In this document: positions 2,791 to 57,107 of the stretch, in pieces
How the letters are laid out: every line of letters starts with the position of its first letter
Numbering within the stretch: the stretch's first letter is position 1
NCBI GenBank assembly: GCA_019448385.1
Contig: JAGTXO010000068.1
Span: forward strand, 93,846 to 157,845
DNA length: 64,000 nt
Origin: Diacronema lutheri
Taxonomy: Eukaryota; Haptophyta; Pavlovophyceae; Pavlovales; Pavlovaceae
Direction of reading: 5' to 3'
Notes under the pieces: model-generated
What the model was told of the DNA's origin: nothing
Databases searched by the model: none
Seen by the model: only the letters and a program-made list of their open reading frames with translations
Made by a program: the position numbers and the translations under genes

Positions 2791-3398
2791 TCAGATGAGC
2801 ACGTCCTCGCCACGCGGCGGCGCGTGCAGCGCCGTGAAGAGCGACGGCGCAAGCGCGAGCATGACGAGCACGGCGAGCCAGAAGCGCGTGTCGCGCACGA
2901 GCTCGTATGGCGAGGGGACGGAGGAGCGCATGTCGTTGAGCACGCGCGTGGCGCGTGCAGTCGCCAAATCCTGCGTCGTGTACGCCGAACGGCCCTCTGG
3001 CCGCCAGCTCGCGCTGCCCTCTCGCTGGAACTTCCTCCAGTCCTGCGCGCGACACATCGCGCGTGGCGCGCGCGCGCGCCGCACATGGGTGAGGACCTGG
3101 CTGGCGGTGGGGCGGGCGAAGAGGGGCGCGCGTTGAGCTGCGAGGGCAGAGAGGGCACGCGCTGCGCTGCGCGCGCTCGTCCGCGCCGCACCGCGTCCCA
3201 GTCTGTGCTGAACTCTGCGCCCGCGGCATCCTCGCCTTCGGGTAGCGGCGGCTCGCCGTCGCCGCCGCGCTCGGCGAGCGCGTCGATCCTGCAGATGCGG
3301 CGCGGCTGGCGTGCGAGGAGCTGCGTGCCACGTGCGCGCGGCGCGACGGCGGCCGTGCACGCCGCCAACGCCGCGGCGAGAGCCACGAGGCGCAGCAT
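2791..3398 (-). CDS. Small predicted plastid or secretory protein with C-terminal membrane segment
   Basis: Two minus-strand exons, 3398-3192 and 3042-2791, join in phase 0 (GTGCGG...CAG) to encode 152 residues. The N-terminus MLRLVALAAALAACTAAVA is a hydrophobic signal peptide followed by an Arg-rich stretch, as in plastid-targeted precursors of complex algae. The junction gives STDWDA-DWRKFQREG, a motif style I associate with small uncharacterised plastid proteins of algae. Near the C-terminus FWLAVLVMLALAPSLFTAL is a predicted membrane helix followed by a short polar tail. An upstream in-frame TTG (3446) would extend the protein by 16 residues, but the ATG directly preceding the signal peptide is the natural start. 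No function can be assigned. Confidence 0.6.
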
Positions 3399-3564
3399 CC
3401 GTCGGAGCGTTCGAGAGAGGTCGGGCTCCCGCTTCCCAAGGGGCAACAGGGCCTTTTTGACGGGCGCGCTTTTTGCGGGCGATCCCAGTCATCAACTCAC
3501 CCCCAGTGTGAGCACGAGACGCGTCAGTTCCACGACCACACGCCCGTTAGTCCGTCACGCCGGC

Positions 3565-5677
3565 TCAGACGGCGCCCACCTCGAGCTTCTCGCCGTCGCT
3601 CAGCTGAACGCGCCCCTGCTGCTCGTCGAGCTGCCGCAGCTTGCGCAGCGCCACGGACGTGCGCTTGGTTCCCATCTCATGCAGCTCCTTGAGCACTTGC
3701 CCAAAGTCCTGCGCCCGCCGGGAGTCGCCCGCGGCCCCGGCCGCGCATCGGCGCGCGCGCGCCCATGCGCGCGCCCGCGTGTCGCACGACGCGCGGCGCG
3801 CGACGCGCGACGCGCGACGCGCGCGCGCGCTCACGCGGATGGACAAGGAGCGGGTGCGCCACTGTTCGGCCATGTGCGCGTAAAGCGCCGCGTGCAGCTC
3901 GTGGAACGCGTCGACGGCCGAGTTGCGCTCGTTCGCCGCGGCGGTGAGCGCACCGCAGCGCAGCGCCTCGATGCACACCTTTGTCAGGTTGATCGAGACC
4001 GTCATGAACGGGAAATCACGCTCGCCGCGCGAGAGCGCGTACAGGCCCTGCGCGAGCGGCCGCCTGCGCGTGACGAGGTAGAGCGCGTTGAGGAGGGAGA
4101 GCATGCCGACGCCGCGCAGATCCGTCGCCGGGTCCGTGCCCTGGAAGCCCACCATGTCCCAATGCGCGCCGTAGCGCGGCGGGTCGCGCGCGTTGCCCGT
4201 GAGCGCTTTAAAAATCGACATGAGCATGCGCAGATGCGCGTCGACCGTGTCATCGAGCGGCGTCTTCGCGACGCAGAGCAGCATGTCGCGCTGCGCGTGC
4301 AGGTGCTCGCCGCGCAGGCGCGGGCGGAGGAACGGGACGAGGCGTGGCATGCAACCCGCACCGGACCAGTCCTGCAGCACAGCGGCGCGCGGTCCGCACG
4401 CCGCGCACGCGCGTCAGCCGCGCGCGCGGCGCGCGGACCACGCAGCCGCGCATACGCGCGCGAGCGCGCGTGGCGCCGCCGCGGGCGCGCACCGCGCGCG
4501 CGTGGCGCGGATGCGCGCGCGTCACCTCGCGAACGATCACCGCAGCGTGCGCCGTCACGTCCGCGTCGGTTTCAAAAAAGGCGAGGGCCTCGGCGAAGCC
4601 GATCTTATCGCCGCGCGCGCGCGCGCCGAGCGGCGCCTGTGCGCGCGCCGCGGCGCGCTCGGCGGCGGCCGCGCCCGCCTGCTCGACAGCCGCCCACTGC
4701 GCCTCGGCTGCCGCGCGCTCGGCGGCGTCCGCCGCGCCGCGCGCGCCGGGCAGCGCGGCGGCGCCCGGCGCGCCGCCACGCACGTCGGTGCCGCCCTCCT
4801 CGCCGTCGCCGCCGGCCCTGCCCTCGCCCTCGCCCCCATCGCCACCACCGACCGCGCCCGCGCCCTCGCCTCCGCCGCCGTCGCCATCGCCCCCGTCGCC
4901 ACCACCGTCGTCATGCTCATCCTCTTCCGCATCCTCCGAGATGTGAATCAAGCCGCCGCGCCGCTGCGAGGCGGCGAGCTCGTCCGCGCGCTCGGCTGCA
5001 CTCTTCGCCGCGTGCGCCGCCACCGCCTGCTGCCCCGCCGCGCCTCCACCCGCCGCGCCACCCGCCGCCTCGCGGACGGCGCGTAGCGCGCTCGCGGCGT
5101 CACCTCGAAGGTCGGCGAGTTGGCGCTCCTCAGCGGCCGCGGCGGCCTCGGTTGCCTTTCGGCGCTGCTCGGCGAGAAGCGCGTCCACGTCGTCCGCGTC
5201 TGCCGCATCCGCCGGAGACAACGCCGGCGCCGCCGGCGCCGCCGCCGCTGGCAGCCGAGGCGCGTCGGCGCGGTCGGCGTCGGCGTCGGCCGCCGGCCGT
5301 GCGGTCTCGGCGTCCGCGGGCTCGAACGCAAACTCGTCGTCGTCGTCGCCGTCGTCGTCTCCGCCGGCGCGGGCGGTCGCGGGCACGCGCACGCTGCCAA
5401 CCTGCGCGGCCGCCGCCTCGGCCTCCAGCTCGAGCTGCCGCTCGAACTCTGCGCGGCGCGCCTCGTCGTCGCGCGCGGCGGCAGCAGCCGCGCGACTATC
5501 GCGCGCGGCCGCGAGCGCGCGCTTGCGATCGTCCGCGTCGGGTCGCGCGCGCTGCGCGGCAAGTTGCGCGGGCCGCGCGCCCGGGATCGACGTGCCAGCC
5601 GGCACGCCGGCCGGCCCGCCGCCGCCGAGGACCTCCTCGACGGCGTTGGCCATCGCCAACTCGAGCGGGGTGGCCAT
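3565..5677 (-). CDS. ELMO-domain protein (ELMOD-like, putative Arf-family GAP)
   Basis: Three minus-strand exons (5677-4526, 4371-3835, 3708-3565), both introns in phase 0, encode 610 residues. The C-terminal third is an ELMO domain: residues 454-474 read HWDMVGFQGTDPATDLRGVG, matching the family core W-x-x-x-GFQG-x-DP-x-TD-x-RG. Residues 1-384 are an Ala/Glu-rich, largely disordered or coiled-coil extension with an acidic patch (DDDGDDDDEFAFEP) and a second Asp/Gly-rich run near 240-290. ELMOD proteins stimulate GTP hydrolysis on Arf/Arl small GTPases in membrane traffic and ciliary function; that role is inferred from the family. The donors GTGACG and GTGAGC are closer to the eukaryotic consensus than most in this window. 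The 5' neighbour's stop lies 194 bp upstream. Confidence 0.85.
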
Positions 5678-5871
5678 GCTTTTCAGCCGGGGACTCCAGG
5701 AGTTGGCCGTTGCGCGTCCGATTTTCGATACGCACGACTTGTGCGCGGCGCGAGCCAGTCGCGTGCCGTCCGCTCACGCCTCACGGCTCCGCGGGCACGT
5801 CAGCGCTGCGGAGCCAAAATTGCTGCCCGCAAAAGGGGTTCTGGGCAATTGGCATGCCTTGCACGGATCAT

Positions 5872-8800
5872 TCACGCGCTTTGGCGCGCCGGCGCGTCCG
5901 CGCTTCGCAGCCAGCGACACGACCTCGACATCTGCTTCCCTGCGCCGCCGAAGCGCAGCTCGAACGCGCGCCCGACCTCGCCCGCGCCCGACGCGCGCCG
6001 CCCGTTGCCCGCCCGCCCTCCAAACGGCAGCCGCTCCTTGGCGCCCTTCTCGGGCTGCGCGCCCGCGCCGGCCTGGCTGGCGCACGCGCGGCGCACGACG
6101 TGCTCGCGCAGCTTGAGCAAGAGCGGCTCGACGTCGGCGGCAAACCACGCGTCCACGTGCTGCATGTACGTATCATGCCACGAGTCGACGCCACCCGACG
6201 GCGTGCCGGGCGCGCACACACTTCGCCGAGGCGCGCTCTTCCTGGGCCGACGGCGTCCAGAGACGGTTGGGCTTGCCGAGCGCGACGGTCGGCCGAGCTC
6301 GGCAACCACCGCCTCGATCGTCGCCGCGCTCGCGGCCTCGGCGGCGGTGCGCGTCGGAGGCGCACGCCGCGGCGCGCACCCCGTCGACGCGCGCGCGCGC
6401 CGCTCGCGGTGCGCCGGCTCGTCACTGCCGGCGGCTCCGCCGTCAAGCGCGTCGACGCCCGAGCCGACGGCGGCGTCAACCTCGCGCGAATGCGCGCGCG
6501 CGCCGCCCGCCACGGCCTGCTCGGCGCGCGAAGCGTCGCCGCCGGCGGAGCTGTGCTCGTCAGGCCGCGCGACCGCGCCTGCCGCCGCCGGCGCGCGTGG
6601 CGAGCTGCCCACGGGCGGCGTCCCGGGCACGGCCTCGTCGCCGCCGTGCGGCGTGTCGACGCGCAGCAGCGGCGCGCTGCCCGCGCGCCGCAGCTGCGCC
6701 GCCGCCCGCGCGCCATCCGCGCGCTCGTTGTCGCCGTGCGTGGACGGCGGCAGCGCGCTGCCGCCGTCCACGCGCACTGCGCTCACTGGCGCCGTCAGCT
6801 CACTGTGCTCACTGCGCACACTGCGCACACTGCGCACACTGACGGCGTCAGCGCGCGCAGTGAGCGTGGATGGCGGCAGCGCGCTGCCGCCGTCCACGCG
6901 CACTGCGCTCACTGGCGCCGTCTGCTCACTGTGCGCACTGCGCACACTGACGGCGTCAGTGCGCGCAGTCAGCGCCGCGCTGTGCGCGAGAGGCGCCACG
7001 CCGCCGTTCCAGGCCGTCGCCGGGGCGCCGTCCGCCATTTGTCGAGGCGCCCGTTGCGCCGTCTCGGCCACCGGCGGCGCGCGCTCGTGTGCGAGCGTCG
7101 TGCCGACGCTGACGAAGAGCGGCGCCTCCTCGCCGTCGGTCGACTCGCCCACGTCGTCGAGGCCCGCCGCCGCGCCGACCGCGGCGGCGCCAACCACCGC
7201 GTCGGCGCGCGCGCGCGCCGCCGCACCCGCGCGCTGGGCAGCGCCGCCGCGCGCCGCGAGCGCGACGGGGTGGCGCACGACGACCGTGGGCGAGGCGTTC
7301 GACGACCGCGCGCGCGGCGGCGCCGGGTCCGCGAGCTCCTCGGCGGCGCGCAGCGCGAGCTCGGCGCACGCGGTGCACGTCTCGCCGTCCCACGTGGCGC
7401 ACAGGCGGCCGTGCCGCTGCTGCGTGGTGCCGTGCGCGGTGCGGCGCGCGCGTTGGCGGCAACAGGTGCGGAGCGGCGCGCCATCCGCTGTGCCGTTCGC
7501 GCGGCCAAAGTGGCCAAACGTCGCGTGGCGCGCGGGCAGCGGCTGCGTCGACGCGGTGATGGCGACCACGTCCGTCCGGTCCATCCGTCGTCCGTCGCCA
7601 TCGTGCGCAGCACTTACGCCTGCCAACGAGCGCATGGGCGCGCGGGCGTGCGCGACGGCGGGCGCGCTGCACGCCGCTCGCGCTGCATGCGCGTCCGGCT
7701 CGGCGTCGCTCGAGCAGGCGCTGTCCGGTGCGCTGTCCGGTGGACTGGGGCTGTCCGGCGGCGAGCGCGCGCGCGGCAGCCGGAGCAGCGCCGAGCCGGA
7801 CTCGACGGCGGTTCGGCGCCACTCGGTCGGGTTGGCGCGGCGCAGCGCGACGGCGAGCGTCTCGAAGAGCAGCTCGGATGCCAGGTCGGCGAAGGACGCG
7901 AGGAGTCTCGAGTAGCCGTAGCCGCGCGCCGCGCGCTTCGCGGCCGCGCGCGCGAGAAGTGCAATCGCCGTGCACTGCGCGAAGCGCTCGAACGCGGCGT
8001 CGGAGACGAAGGAGCGCTGGATGAGCGCGCGGAGCACGCGCCGCTGCGCCGGCACGGCGACGGCCGTCGTCATCACCGAGATCCGCCGGATCGCGTCCGC
8101 GTAGCGCGGCGCGTTCTCCGGTTTTAAAAAGAGCTCCGCGGAGACATGCACAGCCGATGGCGGCCGGCTGAGCAGGAAGAGGCCCCACTCGAAGAGGCAC
8201 CACCTGCGCACAACACGGCGCGCCAAAACGACGACGCCGACGCCGAGCGCGCGCGGTGGCGGCGCCGCGCCGAACGATGAGCGCGCGCGCGACTGCCCGC
8301 GCGTCTCAACTGGGAAACAAAAAGATGAGCACGCGTTGAACAACTGAAAACAAAGAAAAGAAGAAGAAAAAGAGCACGTGCCCGCCGGTGTCCGAGCCGG
8401 CCGTCCGGCGCCGGCGCCAACGGCGCAGGCCGCGCTCCGGCCGCGCTCGGCAAAACACCTCGCCGGCGTCCTCGCCGGCGTCCGGGGCCCGCGCGCGCCG
8501 GCGCGCGCGCGCGCGCGCGCACATGCGCGAGAAGTAGTTGTGCGTGCACAGAACAATCATGGCGTCGCACTGGCCAAGAAAGCCGCCGATCTACGCGTTG
8601 ACGCGCGCGCGCGCGTGTGTGCGTGGGCAGGCGGCGGCGTGCGAGGCGGCGTGCAGGCCGCGCGCGGGGGGTCAACGCGTCAAAGTGGCCGGGGGTTGCC
8701 GAGGGCCGGCGCGGGCGGCACGGGCGGCACGGCGAGCGGCGCGCGCGCGCGCGCGCGCGCGCGCGCGCGCGCACCTGACCGACGCACAGGTCGAGGAGAG

Positions 8801-11392
8801 AGTGTTCTTGCGGGCAGCACGCCTTGTCGATCCACAGCCGCGGCTCAGGCGGCGCGGGCGGCGCGCTCGAGCAGCCGCCCGCGTCGGCGGCGTGCGCGGC
8901 GGAGCACGCGCCCGCCGCGCACTCCGCGGCGGCCTGCAGGTCCTTGCACGCGAACGAGACCTCCATCGCCTTCGCCTGCGCGTACGCGATCGCAGAGTCC
9001 CAATCCTCGGGAGGCGACCAGACGTGGCTGACGAACCACAGCGGCGCTTTGGCCGCCGGAGGGCAGCGCGCACCGGACTCCGGTGCGGCCGCCGGAGCTC
9101 CCGGACTCAGCCAGCTCGGCGTCGCTTGACCAGCCGATCGCGCCGCGCCAGCGCCCGCCGGGCACGGCGCGTCGATTGACGCAGCGCGCGGCGGCGCGGC
9201 CGGCGCGGCCGGCGCGGCCGGCGACGGCGCCGGCTGCCGCTGCCGCGTGCCCCACGCACCGCACGCGCCCGCCGCGCACGGCCCGATGGGCTGCGAGAGG
9301 AGGTAATCCTCGAGCCTGCCGTTCGGAACAGCCCAAAAGGACGCCGCAACGGGCAGCCGCTCTGGCGTCGTCCAGTCAGCGCTGACTGTGGCGACGTGCA
9401 CCTGTTGCGAGGTGAGTGGAAGCGCACGAAACGAAGGAGCGCGCGCGCGCCACGCAGGGGCGATGACGTGAAGGGGGTACCGCCACGCAGCGGGCGATGG
9501 CGTGAAGGGGGCGGCGCGCAGCGCGGCGGGTGAGGGCAGGCGGCAGGCACGCAGCGGGCGCGCGCGGCGCGGCCGCCAGCGCGCAAGAGCGCGGGCCCGC
9601 CAACCGCAGACCGCTGAGGCGATGACGAGGCCAACGATGGCGACCGCGCGCAAGAGCGCGGGCCCGCCGGCGCGGGCCCGCCAAAATGCGCGCGCGGCGT
9701 GCGGCGTGCGGCGCGCACCCCGCGCAGCAGCAGCAGCTCAGGCGTCGGATGGCGCTGCGCGAGTGCACTGAGGACGTCAAGCTCGCGCACGAGGGCCGCG
9801 CGCTCGTGCGACGTCATGGGCGAGACGTGCAACGGCGCCGCGTGCGCCGAATTCCACGACGCGCCGCGAGTCGGCAGCACCGGCAGCACGAGCGCACTCA
9901 GCACGGCGAGCATCGGCCGCGCGTCGGCCACGTCCCCGGCCGCATCCGCGTCCTGCCCACCGCGCGCCGCGTCCTCGGCAGCGGCGCCGACGCTCGCCGC
10001 GCCGCGCGCAGCGGCGCTCGCGGCGCGCGCACGCCCCGCGCGCGGCCGCGCGCGCTCGGCCGCGGCGTCGTCGTCGTCCGCCGCTTCCGGCGTGCGCGAC
10101 GGCGGCTGCACCTCGAGTGTGTCGTGGAAGACAGCGTCCTCGCCCGGCGACTCATAGCCGGCCCCGGACTCGAGCGGCGCGGCCCCGAACTCGAGCGGCG
10201 CGGCCCCGGACTCCGCCCCCGCGTCGTCCGCGTCCGCCTCCGTGCCCGCCTCCACCTGCTCGAGCATGTGCGCAAACTCGTGCGCGGCGAGCGCGCGCAC
10301 GTCGGCGCCCAGCTCGGCCGCGACCGCCGTCGCCATCGCCGTCGCCCGCGAGCGGCGCGCTAAACGCACCGCACTGCGCGGCGATGGCAGACCGCCGCCT
10401 CGCACCACGCCAGGCGCGGGCGACGCGCGCGCGCGGGCGCGCCACGCGCTGAGCAGGCCGCGCCAGCCGTGGCTCGCGAGCGCGGCCGCTGGCCAGCGCC
10501 AACTGTCGCGCGGCGCATGAGACGTCGGGTCCTTCGCCTCCGCGCCCGCCGCCACGCCGCTACGCCACCACGCGCGCTCAGCCACCGTCGCGAGCGGAGA
10601 GCGAGCTGGGAGCGAGTGCGCGAACGCGTTCAAGTCGAATGCCGAGCGCTCGATCGAGCCGCGCGGGCTGTCCGCCGCGCCGCGCGTCCGCCGCTGCTCG
10701 TTCGAGCTCTCGGCGGTAACGAAGAGTTGTGCAAGCGCGTCGTGCACGTCGCCGGGCGAGAAGGGCGCGGCGGGCGTGCCGGAGGCGAGCGGCTCGCTCG
10801 CGCGCGCGACGGCGGCGCGGCCGAGAACCCACACCTGCCACGCCGCCGAGCTCCCCTCGGGCGGCACGATCGGCACCATCAGGATGGACTCGCCGTACAG
10901 CCGCTCGGCGAGCGCGGGCACGGCGCCCTCGACAACGTACTCGAGGCCGCGCCGGTCGGACGCGTAAGAGAGGCGCGACGAGCCGTCGGCGAGCAACCGG
11001 TAGTCGAAGATTGGCATGCTCGACCTGCGGAACGACCGCTCGAGATTGGTATGCAGCAGGTTGAGGTTGAGCATTAGCTCGCGCACGTCCGAGCCGAGCG
11101 CACCGAGCAGCTTCAAGTAGCCGGCGCGCGCGACGTGTTCGATATGCGCCTTACCGATCAGCCGGAGCCCATCCGCCAGCTCGAGCTCGAGCTCGTCGAG
11201 CGTCGCAACGAGCAGGCTCTTCGACAGGCAGTCGGGATACTGCTCGGCGCGCACGAGCGTGTCGTCGGGCGCGACGACCGGCGCGACGTCGCGCGCCATG
11301 TCGGCGAGCGCGCGCGCGCGCGCGCGCGCCCACGCGCTCGGCTCGCGCTCGTCGAGCAGCGCCTTGAGCACCGTGTGGATCAGCCCGTGCAT
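5872..11392 (-). CDS. H-NOX (haem gas-sensor) domain joined to a TIR/HET-like domain; novel architecture
   Basis: Four minus-strand exons (11392-9719, 9401-8775, 8590-8523, 8203-5872) encode 1,566 residues. Residues 1-170 are an H-NOX domain: start MHGLIHTVLKALL, predicted proximal haem ligand His114 in LNLLHTNL, and the haem-propionate motif YxSxR at Tyr143-Ser145-Arg147. Residues about 680-860 carry a TIR/HET-like block: WFVSHVWSPPEDW (680s), LWIDKACCPQE (747-757), CDAMIVLCTHNYFSR then MWCLFEW (775-796). The last 700 residues look disordered, with a duplicated VDGGSALPPST segment. Exons 1 and 2 join in phase 0, exon 1 has no stop before the intron, and there is no in-frame ATG ahead of exon 2, which argues against two genes. 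H-NOX domains bind NO, CO or O2. That gas binding controls the TIR-like part is inference. No guanylate cyclase domain is visible. Confidence 0.75.
6731..6905. repeat. Duplicated segment with a 34-bp palindrome inside the H-NOX/TIR-like gene
   Basis: The segment at 6739-6772 is a perfect 34-bp inverted repeat (CGTGGACGGCGGCAGC and its complement). A second, one-mismatch copy lies at about 6865-6898. Both copies and the adjoining CACTG-rich stretch encode the repeated VDGGSALPPST and SVRSxxSE peptides near the middle of the last exon. Confidence 0.8.
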
Positions 11393-53329: not shown

Positions 53330-54746
53330 TCAGAGGACGGCGAGGAGCTCCACGTCGAAGATGAGCGTCGCCTGCAGCAGTCAGCGGCAACACGGGGTGT
53401 GGCGAGGAAAGACGGTCAAGATGGGGGCGGGGGCGGGGCGGGGGGCTAGGGTGGGGTGGGGTGGGGTGGGGTGGGGTGGGAGGGAGGCGAGGTGGAGCGG
53501 ATTTTTGGTTCTCGTAACGTCATCCGGGGCGGGATGCGTTCGCGCCGGCGACGCCAAAGGGCGCGCGCGCGCGCGCGCGCGCCTTCGCGGGGATCGGGCC
53601 CTGGCCGCCGTCGCCGTACGCCAGGTCGCTCGGGATCGTCAGCTTGGCCTTGCCGCCCGGCTTCATCATCTGCAGGCCCTCGGTCCAGCCCCTGATGACG
53701 CGGTCGAGGCCAAACTCGATCGGCTCGCCGCGCGCGATCGACGAATCGAAGACCTGCGCCGAAAGGCGGGAGAAGGAAAAGTCGAGTTTTAAAAGTGGGT
53801 TGCGCCCGCGCGGGGCGCCGCGCGCGCGTGCGGTCGCGGCCGGTCGTGCGAGTGGAGCGCAGAGGCTGGCGCCGGTCTGCCATCGTGCGAGGCCGAGGAA
53901 GAGAGGGAGAGGGGGGGGGGGGGGGGGGGTGGAAGCCCTCGTAGTGCACGCGGGCCGGCTTGTCGATGGGACGGAGCGGAGGCCGGTGCTGCATACCGAG
54001 GAAGAGAGGGGGGGGGGGGGGGGGGGGGGGTGTGGCGAGGGGGGCACGGGCAGCGCACCGTCCCATCGACAAGCCGGCCCTCGTAATGCACGCGCACGGT
54101 CGACGTCGCCGACGGCGAGGCGCCCGACCCGCTCACAACCTCCTTGTAGATGAGTCCGGTGATCGACTTGGTCGCGCCGGACTCGGCCGCGGCCGCGACG
54201 AGCGCCTCCGCGCCCGCCGCCGCCATCTTGGCCGCGCCGGCCTGCTGCTTCGCCGTGAACAGCGTCGCGGCGGCCTGCGCATACTTGCCCACGTCGACCT
54301 GCAGGTTGTTGAGCAGCGCCTCCTTGACGCCGCCGAGGACGGTGTCGAGCTCGGCGGGCTCGAGGCACTTGAGGTCGCCCAGCTGCGAGCCGATGTTTGC
54401 GCCTGCGCTCCGCCGGCGGCGCCGGCGCGGCGCGCACGGCGCAGGTCGGTGCGCGCGCTCCAGTGACGCGCGCGCGCGCGATCGCGCTCTGGCCGACCGT
54501 CACTTCGGACGAGCCACACGGCAAACGACCCAGCCTGCGCGCGGGCCGCCGCGCGCGCGCACCGAGCGCGTAGAGCGCCTTGGAGTCCTCGGTGGGGAGC
54601 GGCGTGGACGCCTTGATGCCGTGCGTGAAGCTGCGCGTCGCGCTCGCGCGCGACGTGGCGACGCGGAGCAGCGAACGGCCGGCGGCGAGGCGCGACATCG
54701 GGTTGGCGTGCGAGAGGACGAGCAAAGCGAGCGTCGCTACGGCCAT
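53330..54746 (-). CDS. FKBP-type peptidyl-prolyl isomerase with N-terminal FkpA-like domain
   Basis: Four minus-strand exons (54746-54563, 54402-54059, 53753-53583, 53371-53330) give 246 residues. A hydrophobic leader ([16 protein letters not shown]) and an Arg/Ser-rich stretch suggest organelle or secretory targeting. [15 protein letters not shown] and [12 protein letters not shown] match the FKBP N-terminal dimerisation region of Mip/FkpA proteins. The catalytic FKBP domain follows: [53 protein letters not shown] and a last exon encoding [13 protein letters not shown]. Intron 3 has a GC donor (AAG then GCGCG). Intron 2 carries an inverted copy of the preceding exon end. An in-frame ATG at 54788 would add 14 residues; I chose the ATG at the leader. 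Confidence 0.88.
53892..54101. repeat. Partial duplication and inverted repeat spanning an FKBP exon 2 / intron 2 boundary
   Basis: Exon end 54059-54080 (coding strand GGCCGGCTTGTCGATGGGAC) has a perfect 22-bp inverted copy at 53952-53973 in the intron. Directly adjoining, the exon segment CGTGCATTACGAGGGC recurs in direct orientation as CGTGCACTACGAGGGC (about 53936-53951). Two CCGAGGAAGAGAGGG + poly-G units (plus strand, about 53892 and 53997) complete the structure. Confidence 0.85.
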
Positions 54747-54827
54747 GCTTTGTTTGGCCTCCCACGTGGGCCCGCCCAGCCGTTTCATGACGGCTGCCAC
54801 GCGCGTACGTTTTCGAATCGCACCGCG

Positions 54828-55736
54828 ATGGCGCTGCGGGCGCACGGGCCCGATGGCGAGGAGCTGCCGGCGCACGTGCTGGTCGGTCGCGCGCCGGACG
54901 CGACATACCGGGTGAACCGCAAGGATATCTCGCGCAAGCATCTCGAGATCGTCACCGAGGCCTCGCTCGCCGAGCCCGGTCCGTACGTCGAGCTGCACAA
55001 GGCCGGCGCGACGCTCCTCAACGGCGCGCAGCTCCGCGCCGGCCGCACGGCGCTCGCGAGTGGCGACGTGCTTGAGCTGCACTCCTTCTCGCCGACAGCG
55101 GAGAACAACATACGGCGCTTCGCTTTCACGCTGCGTGCCGCACCCGACGAGGAAGAGCCGCTGCCGCCGACGGTTGCCGCGGACGGCGAGTCGCGCGCGC
55201 GCGCGCGCGCGGGCCGCGAGAACGGCGCGTGCGCGGTCAACCTGGCGTCGATGGCGGGGCTCGCGACGGCCGCCGCGGCAGCCGCAGCCTCGCGCCGCGC
55301 GGCCGGCGCCATCGGCCCGCCACCGCCGCACATCTCGCCGCGCGCTTCGCCGCGCGCCGTGCAGGCGGGGCGCGCGGCCGGTGGCGCCCGCGCGTCGCCG
55401 CGCCGCGCCGCGCCGCTCGACCTGCTCTCGAGCTGCGTGCCGCCGCTCGACGCCCCATCGCGCGCGCCGCTGTGCGACGCGAGCGCGCTCTTCCCCACGC
55501 AGCTTCCCGAGCCGCTACTTCCGATCACGGGCCGTTTCGCGCCGCGCGCGCTCTGCGCAGCGCCGCCGCCCATGCCCGCGCGAACGCCGGCCAACGGCGT
55601 GTCCGCCGACGCGCGCGCCGCGCCCGTGAAGCCGCCCGTGGGGCGCGTGCCCTGCACGCCGGTACCGCCGCCGCCGCCGCCGCCGCCGCCACCGCCGCCA
55701 CCGCCACCGCCACCGCGCTCTACGCGGCGCGGCGCG

Positions 55737-55771
<35 letters not shown>

Positions 55772-57107
55772 GCGCGGCGCGAGCAAGCTCAAGCCGTTCG
55801 TGTGGGCCAAGCTGGCTAAGGGCAAGCTGCGCAACACGGTGTGGCAGGCACTGGGCATCGCGCCGCTCGCGATCGACGCCGCCGAGATCGCGGCGCTCTT
55901 CGCCGCCGCGCCGCCGCCCGCGGCGGTCGGCGGTGGCGCCACGCGCGCGGCCGGCGCGCGCGGCGGCTCGCCGCGCGCGGGCGGCGCGCTGCGCCTGCTC
56001 GACGCGAAGCGGGCCAACAACCTCGCCATCATCCTCTCGCGCCTGCAGCTCACCGTGCCGCAGATGCGCGCCGCCATCCTGTCGTGCGACGAGAGCGCGC
56101 TTCCCGCCGAAAAGCTCACGTCGCTTTTAAAATGCGTGCCGACGGCGGCGGAGATCGAGCTCGTCGCGACGGCGGTGGACGGCGCGGCGGCGGACGGCTT
56201 GGACGACGGCGCGAGCCAGCCACTCGCGCTCGGGCTGGCCGAGCAGTTCGTGCGCGACGTTGGGTCCATCCCGCGCCTCCGCCAACGCCTCGAATGCCTC
56301 GCTTTTAAAAGCCGTTTCGCCTCGGAGCTCCGAAGCCTCTATGCCGATGCGATGGCGGTCTCGGTCGCGTGCGACGACGTCCGCGAGTCGACGACGCTGC
56401 GCCGCCTGCTTGGCGTCGTGCTCGGCGCGGGCAACGCGCTCAACGGTGGCTCGTTTCGCGGTGGCGCGCACGGCGTCCGCCTCGAGTGCGTCACGCGCCT
56501 CGCCGAGCTCAAGTCGACGCAGCCCACCGGCGCGCGCCCCGACCTCCTCTGCTTCTGCCTGCACGCGACGGCGCCGCAGCCCATCGTCGTGGACGGCGCC
56601 GAGCGCGACGCTTGCACCGACGCGTTGGACTTTGTACGCGTGCGCGTCGTCGCCGACGCGCTCAGCGCCGAGCTCGCCAGCGCGCGCGCGGCGGCGCGCA
56701 TGTGCACGGCGGCGCTCGCCGAGGACGTGCGGCTTTTCGAGGCCGGGTATGCGGCGGTTGAGGACGAGCTGCGCGCCGGCGCGGCGGGTGTGGCCGGTGG
56801 TGTGGCCGGAGGCGGCGCGCGCACCGCCGGCGACGGCGCCACCGCGCCGGACGACGGCCAGCTGCAGCGCGCGCTCGGCGCGTTCTGCGCGCAGGCGGGC
56901 GCGCAGGTGCGCGGGCTGCGCGCCGAGCTGGTGCGCGTCGAGGCCGAGTTCAGCGAGACGCGCGCCTTCTACGGCGAGGAGGAAGGCGTGACGGTCTCCG
57001 ACTTCTTCGGCCGGCTCAGCGCGTTCGTCGCGCAGCTCGAGGCCGTCAGCGCGCGCTGCGCGGCCGTCGCGAGCGCGCAGCGCGCGAAACGGCAGCGCAC
57101 GGGCTGA
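54828..57107 (+). CDS. Formin with N-terminal FHA domain (FHA-FH1-FH2)
   Basis: An intronless gene of 759 residues. Residues about 10-100 are an FHA domain: [20 protein letters not shown] then HLEI, and [10 protein letters not shown], the N-G turn of phosphothreonine-binding FHAs. A disordered Ala/Pro/Arg linker leads to an FH1 stretch of 18 prolines (about 281-298) that would bind profilin-actin. The FH2 domain begins [21 protein letters not shown] and continues with [30 protein letters not shown] and the signature [22 protein letters not shown]2 domains nucleate and processively elongate unbranched actin filaments. It begins 81 bp from the divergent FKBP gene. FHA is not the usual formin N-terminus. 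Confidence 0.87.

Follow-up and report, generated by a model that had tools for sequence, protein, structure and literature searches.

In this work, we analyzed a 64,000-nucleotide stretch of the genome of Diacronema lutheri, a single-celled marine haptophyte of the Pavlovophyceae (hereafter the window; G000:C55:93846-157845), in which a minus-strand gene at positions 5872-11392 is predicted to encode an N-terminal H-NOX haem domain and a TIR-like domain in one protein. The genome copy searched comprises 103 contigs and 43,492,796 bases, about 10 kb less than the 43,502,671 bases (73.25% GC) published for D. lutheri NIVA-4/92 (PMC8379373). The gene model consists of four exons (11392-9719, 9401-8775, 8590-8523 and 8203-5872) separated by GT-AG introns, which read in one frame to a single terminal stop and give 1566 amino acids. 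The same architecture recurs in eight paralogues, so that nine fusion proteins could be compared. The features of the window gene, aligned where stated with soluble guanylate cyclase (sGC), are:

9719..11392, minus strand: exon 1, residues 1-558, H-NOX domain and long linker; ATG at 11392; donor CGCGGG/GTGCGC, frame open from the ATG
10823..11392, minus strand: H-NOX domain, residues 1-190, with matches to PF07700 and to sGC beta-1
11051..11053, minus strand: His114, putative proximal haem ligand, aligned with the sGC histidine and kept in 9/9 fusion proteins
10952..10966, minus strand: YxSxR motif, here YASDR, residues 143-147, aligned with YYSDR of sGC
10934..10936, minus strand: Val153, at the position of the distal residue of sGC beta-1
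9719..9766, minus strand: exon 1 half of a conserved block that precedes the TIR-like domain, residues 543-558
8775..9401, minus strand: exon 2, residues 559-767, with the FW...G......LS block, TIR-like strand A (WFVSHVW) and the WIDKACC motif; acceptor CAACAG/GTGCAC, open frame
7951..9053, minus strand: TIR-like domain, about residues 675-874, across exons 2-4 and introns 2-3
8523..8590, minus strand: exon 3, residues 768-790, IGGFLGQCDAMIVLCTHNYFSR; GT-AG, alignable with the paralogues and with a wider protist TIR-like family
8197-8199, minus strand: Cys792 of WCxxE, beside Glu795, kept in 9/9 fusions
8188..8190, minus strand: Glu795 of WCxxE, at the TIR catalytic glutamate position, kept in 9/9 fusions
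5872..8203, minus strand: exon 4, residues 790-1566 and stop, with the WCLFEW helix, a helical extension, a low-complexity tail and a C-terminal block; acceptor GCGCAG/GTGGTG, alignable with the paralogues
6085..6180, minus strand: conserved C-terminal block, WHDTYMQHVDAWF...EPLLLKL, residues 1465-1496

The Pfam family HNOB (PF07700) matches residues 43-170 with 66.9 bits against a cut-off of 25.5 (E 2.5e-18), which makes the domain a member of that family. Its nearest solved structures are sGC beta-1 chains (best E 2.4e-11), followed by the H-NOX protein Alr2278 (best E 3.3e-7). The original prediction of an N-terminal H-NOX domain with His114 and a YxSxR motif at residues 143-147 is therefore borne out, with both elements in place and aligned with sGC beta-1. 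His114, Pro127, Tyr143 and Arg147 are invariant among the window domain, three of the eight paralogues and the aligned sGC segment; at the YxSxR position, seven of the nine fusion proteins carry YASxR and the two others (the paralogues on C55, the contig of the window) carry YTGER. Val153 aligns with what we take to be, in numbering and in role, the non-polar distal residue I145 of sGC beta-1. Stable O2 binding by H-NOX domains needs a distal tyrosine. From what is known of H-NOX proteins, the non-polar residue thus suggests that the haem site of the fusion binds nitric oxide (NO) rather than O2, and NO is, judging from these residues, its probable ligand.

The TIR-like domain is more divergent. 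In the spliced protein its motifs WFVSHVW, WIDKACC and WCLFEW start at residues 680, 748 and 791, and an hhalign comparison of residues 746-874 with the wider protist TIR-like family gave 99.5% (E 1e-22). The predicted structure of a member of this wider family retrieved TIR proteins, adaptor TIRs included, in 50 of the 50 matches listed, and this model supports a TIR-type fold for the family. The WCxxE glutamate sits in helix 150-161 of the model (helix C), and both the glutamate and the cysteine are identical in 79/79 rows of the wider-family alignment. On the window protein itself, Pfam TIR_2 (PF13676) scored 15.8-17 bits, below its cut-off of 28; Pfam scans of three paralogues encoded in single frames listed HNOB and no TIR family; and a genome search with the TIR profile PF01582, which detected only 1 of 14 controls, found no match. 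Profile searches of the PDB with the fused domain and with the wider family gave no significant relative, the best TIR being SIGIRR (E 0.11). A predicted fold of P0001, a fragment of the fused family, was set aside (pLDDT 56, pTM 0.39). The block proposed earlier as TIR/HET-like thus stands by its motifs and by its link to a family with a modelled TIR fold, yet it scores below the Pfam cut-offs; for this reason, and since its relatives form a divergent protist TIR/HET-like family, we regard TIR-like as the apt label.

That the two domains belong to one protein is supported by the sequence around the join of exons 1 and 2 and, most strongly, by the paralogues that hold both sets of motifs in one frame. 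The exon 1 frame stays open beyond the exon end as far as 9107, and no in-frame methionine lies between 9737 and exon 2. The conserved block that precedes the TIR-like domain aligns without gaps over the splice with the profile of the eight paralogues (38.2 bits for the spliced sequence, against 30.4 when the frame is read unspliced), its FW, G and LS residues being retained in 9/9 fusion proteins. These observations bear out the phase-0 join proposed previously, although the exon 1 side of the block, taken alone, has no significant match to the same profile. Among 33 open phase-0 GT donors, that at 9719 ranks second by score, and the top-scoring one would leave a 26-nt intron. At the junction of exons 3 and 4, which the original prediction left unspecified, CGCAT/GT...AG/GTGG yields SRMWCLFEW, consistent with R[LI]WC[VM][YF]EW in the paralogues, whose intron, at R[LI]W^C[VM][FY]EW, lies one codon after intron 3 of the window gene. 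GC content at third and second codon positions was compared for exons 1, 2 and 4 and introns 1 and 3. Third positions had the higher value in exon 2, in all thirds of exon 1 and in the two parts of exon 4, but in neither intron, which supports coding through the long linkers. Downstream of the TIR-like domain, a W......VDxW match is present in 9/9 fusion proteins.

The genome searches, which see exons rather than spliced genes, detected at least 11 H-NOX stretches in at least 10 loci. Nine of the ten carry TIR-like stretches in the right order, on the same strand and no more than about 2 kb away. Besides the window gene, these are two further genes on C55, a pair on each of C102 and C11, and single genes on C97 and C28. 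Both C55 paralogues (at 16-18 kb, 794 aa, and 20-22 kb, 953 aa) encode H-NOX and both TIR halves in one open frame, and the C11 gene at 84-86 kb encodes H-NOX and the first TIR half in one frame of 658 aa, as the single protein originally predicted would have it. In the two C55 paralogues the TIR intron has a GC donor and, with 126 nt, keeps the reading frame, so that it may be retained. With the eight paralogues spliced by hand, identity to the window gene was 31-36% in the H-NOX domain and 31-43% in the TIR block, and separate trees of the two domains had identical topology, as a single fusion with later duplications would produce. In both trees the window gene adjoins the other two genes of C55. 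In five pairs of paralogues (the window gene, at 31-43% identity, was excluded), dN/dS was 0.23-0.62 in H-NOX, 0.22-0.54 in the TIR block and 0.50-0.93 in linkers, where linkers and tails were force-aligned and the values carry no significance test. Taken together, the comparison of predicted proteins establishes the architecture, its replication at nine loci, dN/dS below 1 in both domains of the five pairs, and the conservation of the haem pocket and of WCxxE.

Besides, in four of the five pairs (drawn from C55, C102, C11, C28 and C97), the H-NOX and TIR blocks showed less synonymous divergence than the linkers and tails did, the C11/C28 pair being the exception; gene conversion between copies or the forced linker alignment may account for this.

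The tenth H-NOX locus (L045, G000:C40:162000-170000, 3260-8001) is followed by later open frames matching HisKA (17 bits against a cut-off of 26.9, sub-threshold) and HATPase_c (42.8 against 26.4), and is probably a eukaryotic H-NOX histidine kinase gene, here unspliced. Hydrophobic stretches between its H-NOX and kinase frames, seen by eye, suggest membrane segments. Cyclase domains (PF00211) occur at six places in the genome, none of them on a contig with an H-NOX locus, and Pfam scans of the exons of the fusion gene listed no cyclase family, which sets it apart from the soluble guanylate cyclases. H-NOX domains with alternative outputs were already known; what is new, as far as could be tested, is an output of TIR-like type and its spread over nine loci.

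Outside the fusions, the TIR-like domain is common. Of the 82 TIR-like stretches in the genome, 59 reach E <= 0.001; the nine H-NOX loci account for 19 of these, and the other 40 represent a large TIR/HET-like family with FISHSW, WxDKxCIDQ and RLWCxxE motifs, abundant in marine protist data. Two clusters of five stretches each (C9:282051-292827, evenly spaced by 2,694 bases, and C48:342472-351774) point to recent tandem amplification of this family. A database search with the wider family, whose length limits leave out long fusions, returned 193 matches; among the 120 listed, the longest had 342 aa and 118 lacked a precomputed Pfam domain. The search with the alignment of fused TIR-like domains gave four matches, all D. 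lutheri fragments by eye (P0004 is 99% identical to exon 4 of the window gene and P0001 reads as the C28 paralogue), and is uninformative on other species. A protein search with the first 930 residues of the spliced window protein yielded 8000 candidates and no significant one, which probably reflects swamping by low-complexity sequence and is not evidence of absence. No H-NOX was found in viral contigs by exact peptides, a weak test, and the wider TIR-like family was found in 0 of 17 stretches from viral contigs and in 1 of 26 from prokaryote genomes; the latter, in a Chitinophagia metagenome-assembled genome, was rejected as a prokaryotic member, being presumably eukaryotic contamination.

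Two other features were also noted in the window. An ELMO/CED-12 domain (PF04727, E 2.2e-32) lies at 3568-4413 on the minus strand, about 1.5 kb downstream of the fusion gene, and a formin FH2 domain shares one open frame with an FHA domain at 54150-57104 on the plus strand.

We lean towards a function as NO receptor, in which the H-NOX domain gates a TIR-like output and nucleotide cleavage leads to a stress, defence or death response. When NO binds to an HNOB domain, the haem, the histidine, the proline and outer loops move, which presumably affects the output domain (PMC8846402), and TIR domains act by assembly and can form an NAD+-cleaving site (PMC9153377); the simplest reading of the fusion is that an NO-driven shift of the H-NOX domain controls TIR-like assembly. 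NO would bind the haem held by His114 and break or strain the Fe-His bond, and the domain would shift as in soluble guanylate cyclase; the shift would travel via the linker and the conserved FW block, releasing the TIR-like domains or driving their self-assembly. Once assembled, these would, most likely, use the WCxxE glutamate to cleave NAD+ or some other nucleotide, and NO would in this way elicit a response of stress, defence or cell death. The parts of this model are not equally secure: given the fusion, gating of the TIR-like domain by H-NOX is highly likely, nucleotide hydrolysis as its output is an evenly balanced proposal, and a role in cell death or immunity is suggested with some reserve.

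The strongest alternative, which we nevertheless consider unlikely, is that the TIR-like domain has no enzymatic activity and serves for assembly, like the TIR domains of MyD88 and MAL, and that NO-gated clustering recruits partners such as the other TIR-like proteins of the genome. The 40 TIR-like stretches elsewhere in the genome offer such partners, the fold matches include adaptor TIRs, and not every TIR hydrolyses NAD+ (PMC9153377). A pure scaffold would, however, have no need of the WCxxE glutamate and cysteine, kept in all nine fusions and throughout the wider-family alignment. Less probable still is an H-NOX domain that responds to O2, CO or redox state, or that no longer holds haem. 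The serine of YxSxR is indeed absent from two of the nine fusion proteins, and the genome search for an NO synthase domain, in which 2 of 14 controls were detected, found none; but the window protein retains the proximal histidine, the proline, the tyrosine and the arginine, and its distal valine is non-polar as in sGC. It is improbable that HET domain is the better name for the output, with an action like that in fungal incompatibility. Its W(I/L/F)DxxCxxQ resembles the HET motif, and Pfam HET (PF06985) weakly matches two of six fused members (best E 0.034) and four of six wider-family members (best E 0.022; best score 15.5 bits against a cut-off of 22.5). TIR_2 does no worse (four of six fused members, best E 0.0086; three of six wider-family members, best E 0.0036), the window gene's own domain has no HET match, and the genome search with HET gave neither a match nor any detected control. 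In addition, HET and TIR are thought to be related (PMC9153377, PMC10197012), so that the name would be affected more than the mechanism. Finally, two adjacent genes wrongly joined (H-NOX in exon 1, TIR-like in exons 2-4) are very improbable: the model is a prediction from genomic sequence and the exon 1 side of the junction block has no significant match by itself, but three paralogues hold H-NOX and TIR motifs in one open frame, order, strand and C-terminal block are common to all nine loci, and the junction block is gapless over the splice.

The TIR-like domain class can trigger immune cell death in plants and animals. The haptophytes of two studies on NO are, we presume, one species under two names. 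In one study, NO was reportedly involved in triggering a death resembling programmed cell death (PCD) in cells exposed to NO-making bacteria (PMC10356946); in the other, NO is described as a hallmark of the early stage at which a virus infects Emiliania huxleyi (PMC6461841). The involvement of NO in triggering a PCD-like response makes a death or defence output plausible. The words receptor, sensor and guanylate cyclase are absent from the available main text of PMC10356946, and a search of the open-access literature found no paper on a haptophyte NO receptor; the H-NOX-TIR family offers a concrete and expressible candidate, and its nine genes suggest that gas sensing is coupled directly to death or defence. 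It is tempting, if somewhat doubtful, to go further and propose a gas-gated death or immune enzyme, in which NO directly switches TIR-like cleavage, one protein leads from NO to PCD without cGMP, and TIR replaces cyclase as the main H-NOX output. In this haptophyte lineage, a single protein would then connect NO from the environment or from neighbouring cells with programmed cell death.

As in the original prediction, for which no precedent was known, our search of the open-access literature found no report of an H-NOX/TIR fusion, and TIR as a whole word did not occur in the available text of PMC8846402; as far as these searches show, this would be the first report of a TIR-type effector joined to a haem gas sensor. 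With sGC beta-1 (H-NOX-PAS-coiled coil-cyclase), its best PDB match, it shares the N-terminal H-NOX and the haem-pocket residues, whereas its output is a TIR-like domain instead of a cyclase. The W(I)DxxCxxQ motif, which we take to be of HET type, and the weak Pfam HET similarity recall fungal HET-domain proteins; the fusion differs from these in scoring below the HET cut-off and in being joined to a gas sensor. HET domains are associated with cell death (PMC10197012). Bacterial H-NOX proteins likewise combine an NO sensor with a swappable output (PMC8846402), but their outputs are kinases or diguanylate cyclases, often separate proteins, and here the TIR-like output is in the same protein. 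Lastly, the TIR NADases (plant RUN1 and RPP1, SARM1, AbTir and the SPARTA TIR-APAZ) resemble it in the TIR-type fold predicted for the wider family and in WCxxE within helix C; the fusion departs from them in falling below the Pfam TIR cut-off and in sensing through a haem domain, where those proteins have NLR, ARM or Argonaute parts.
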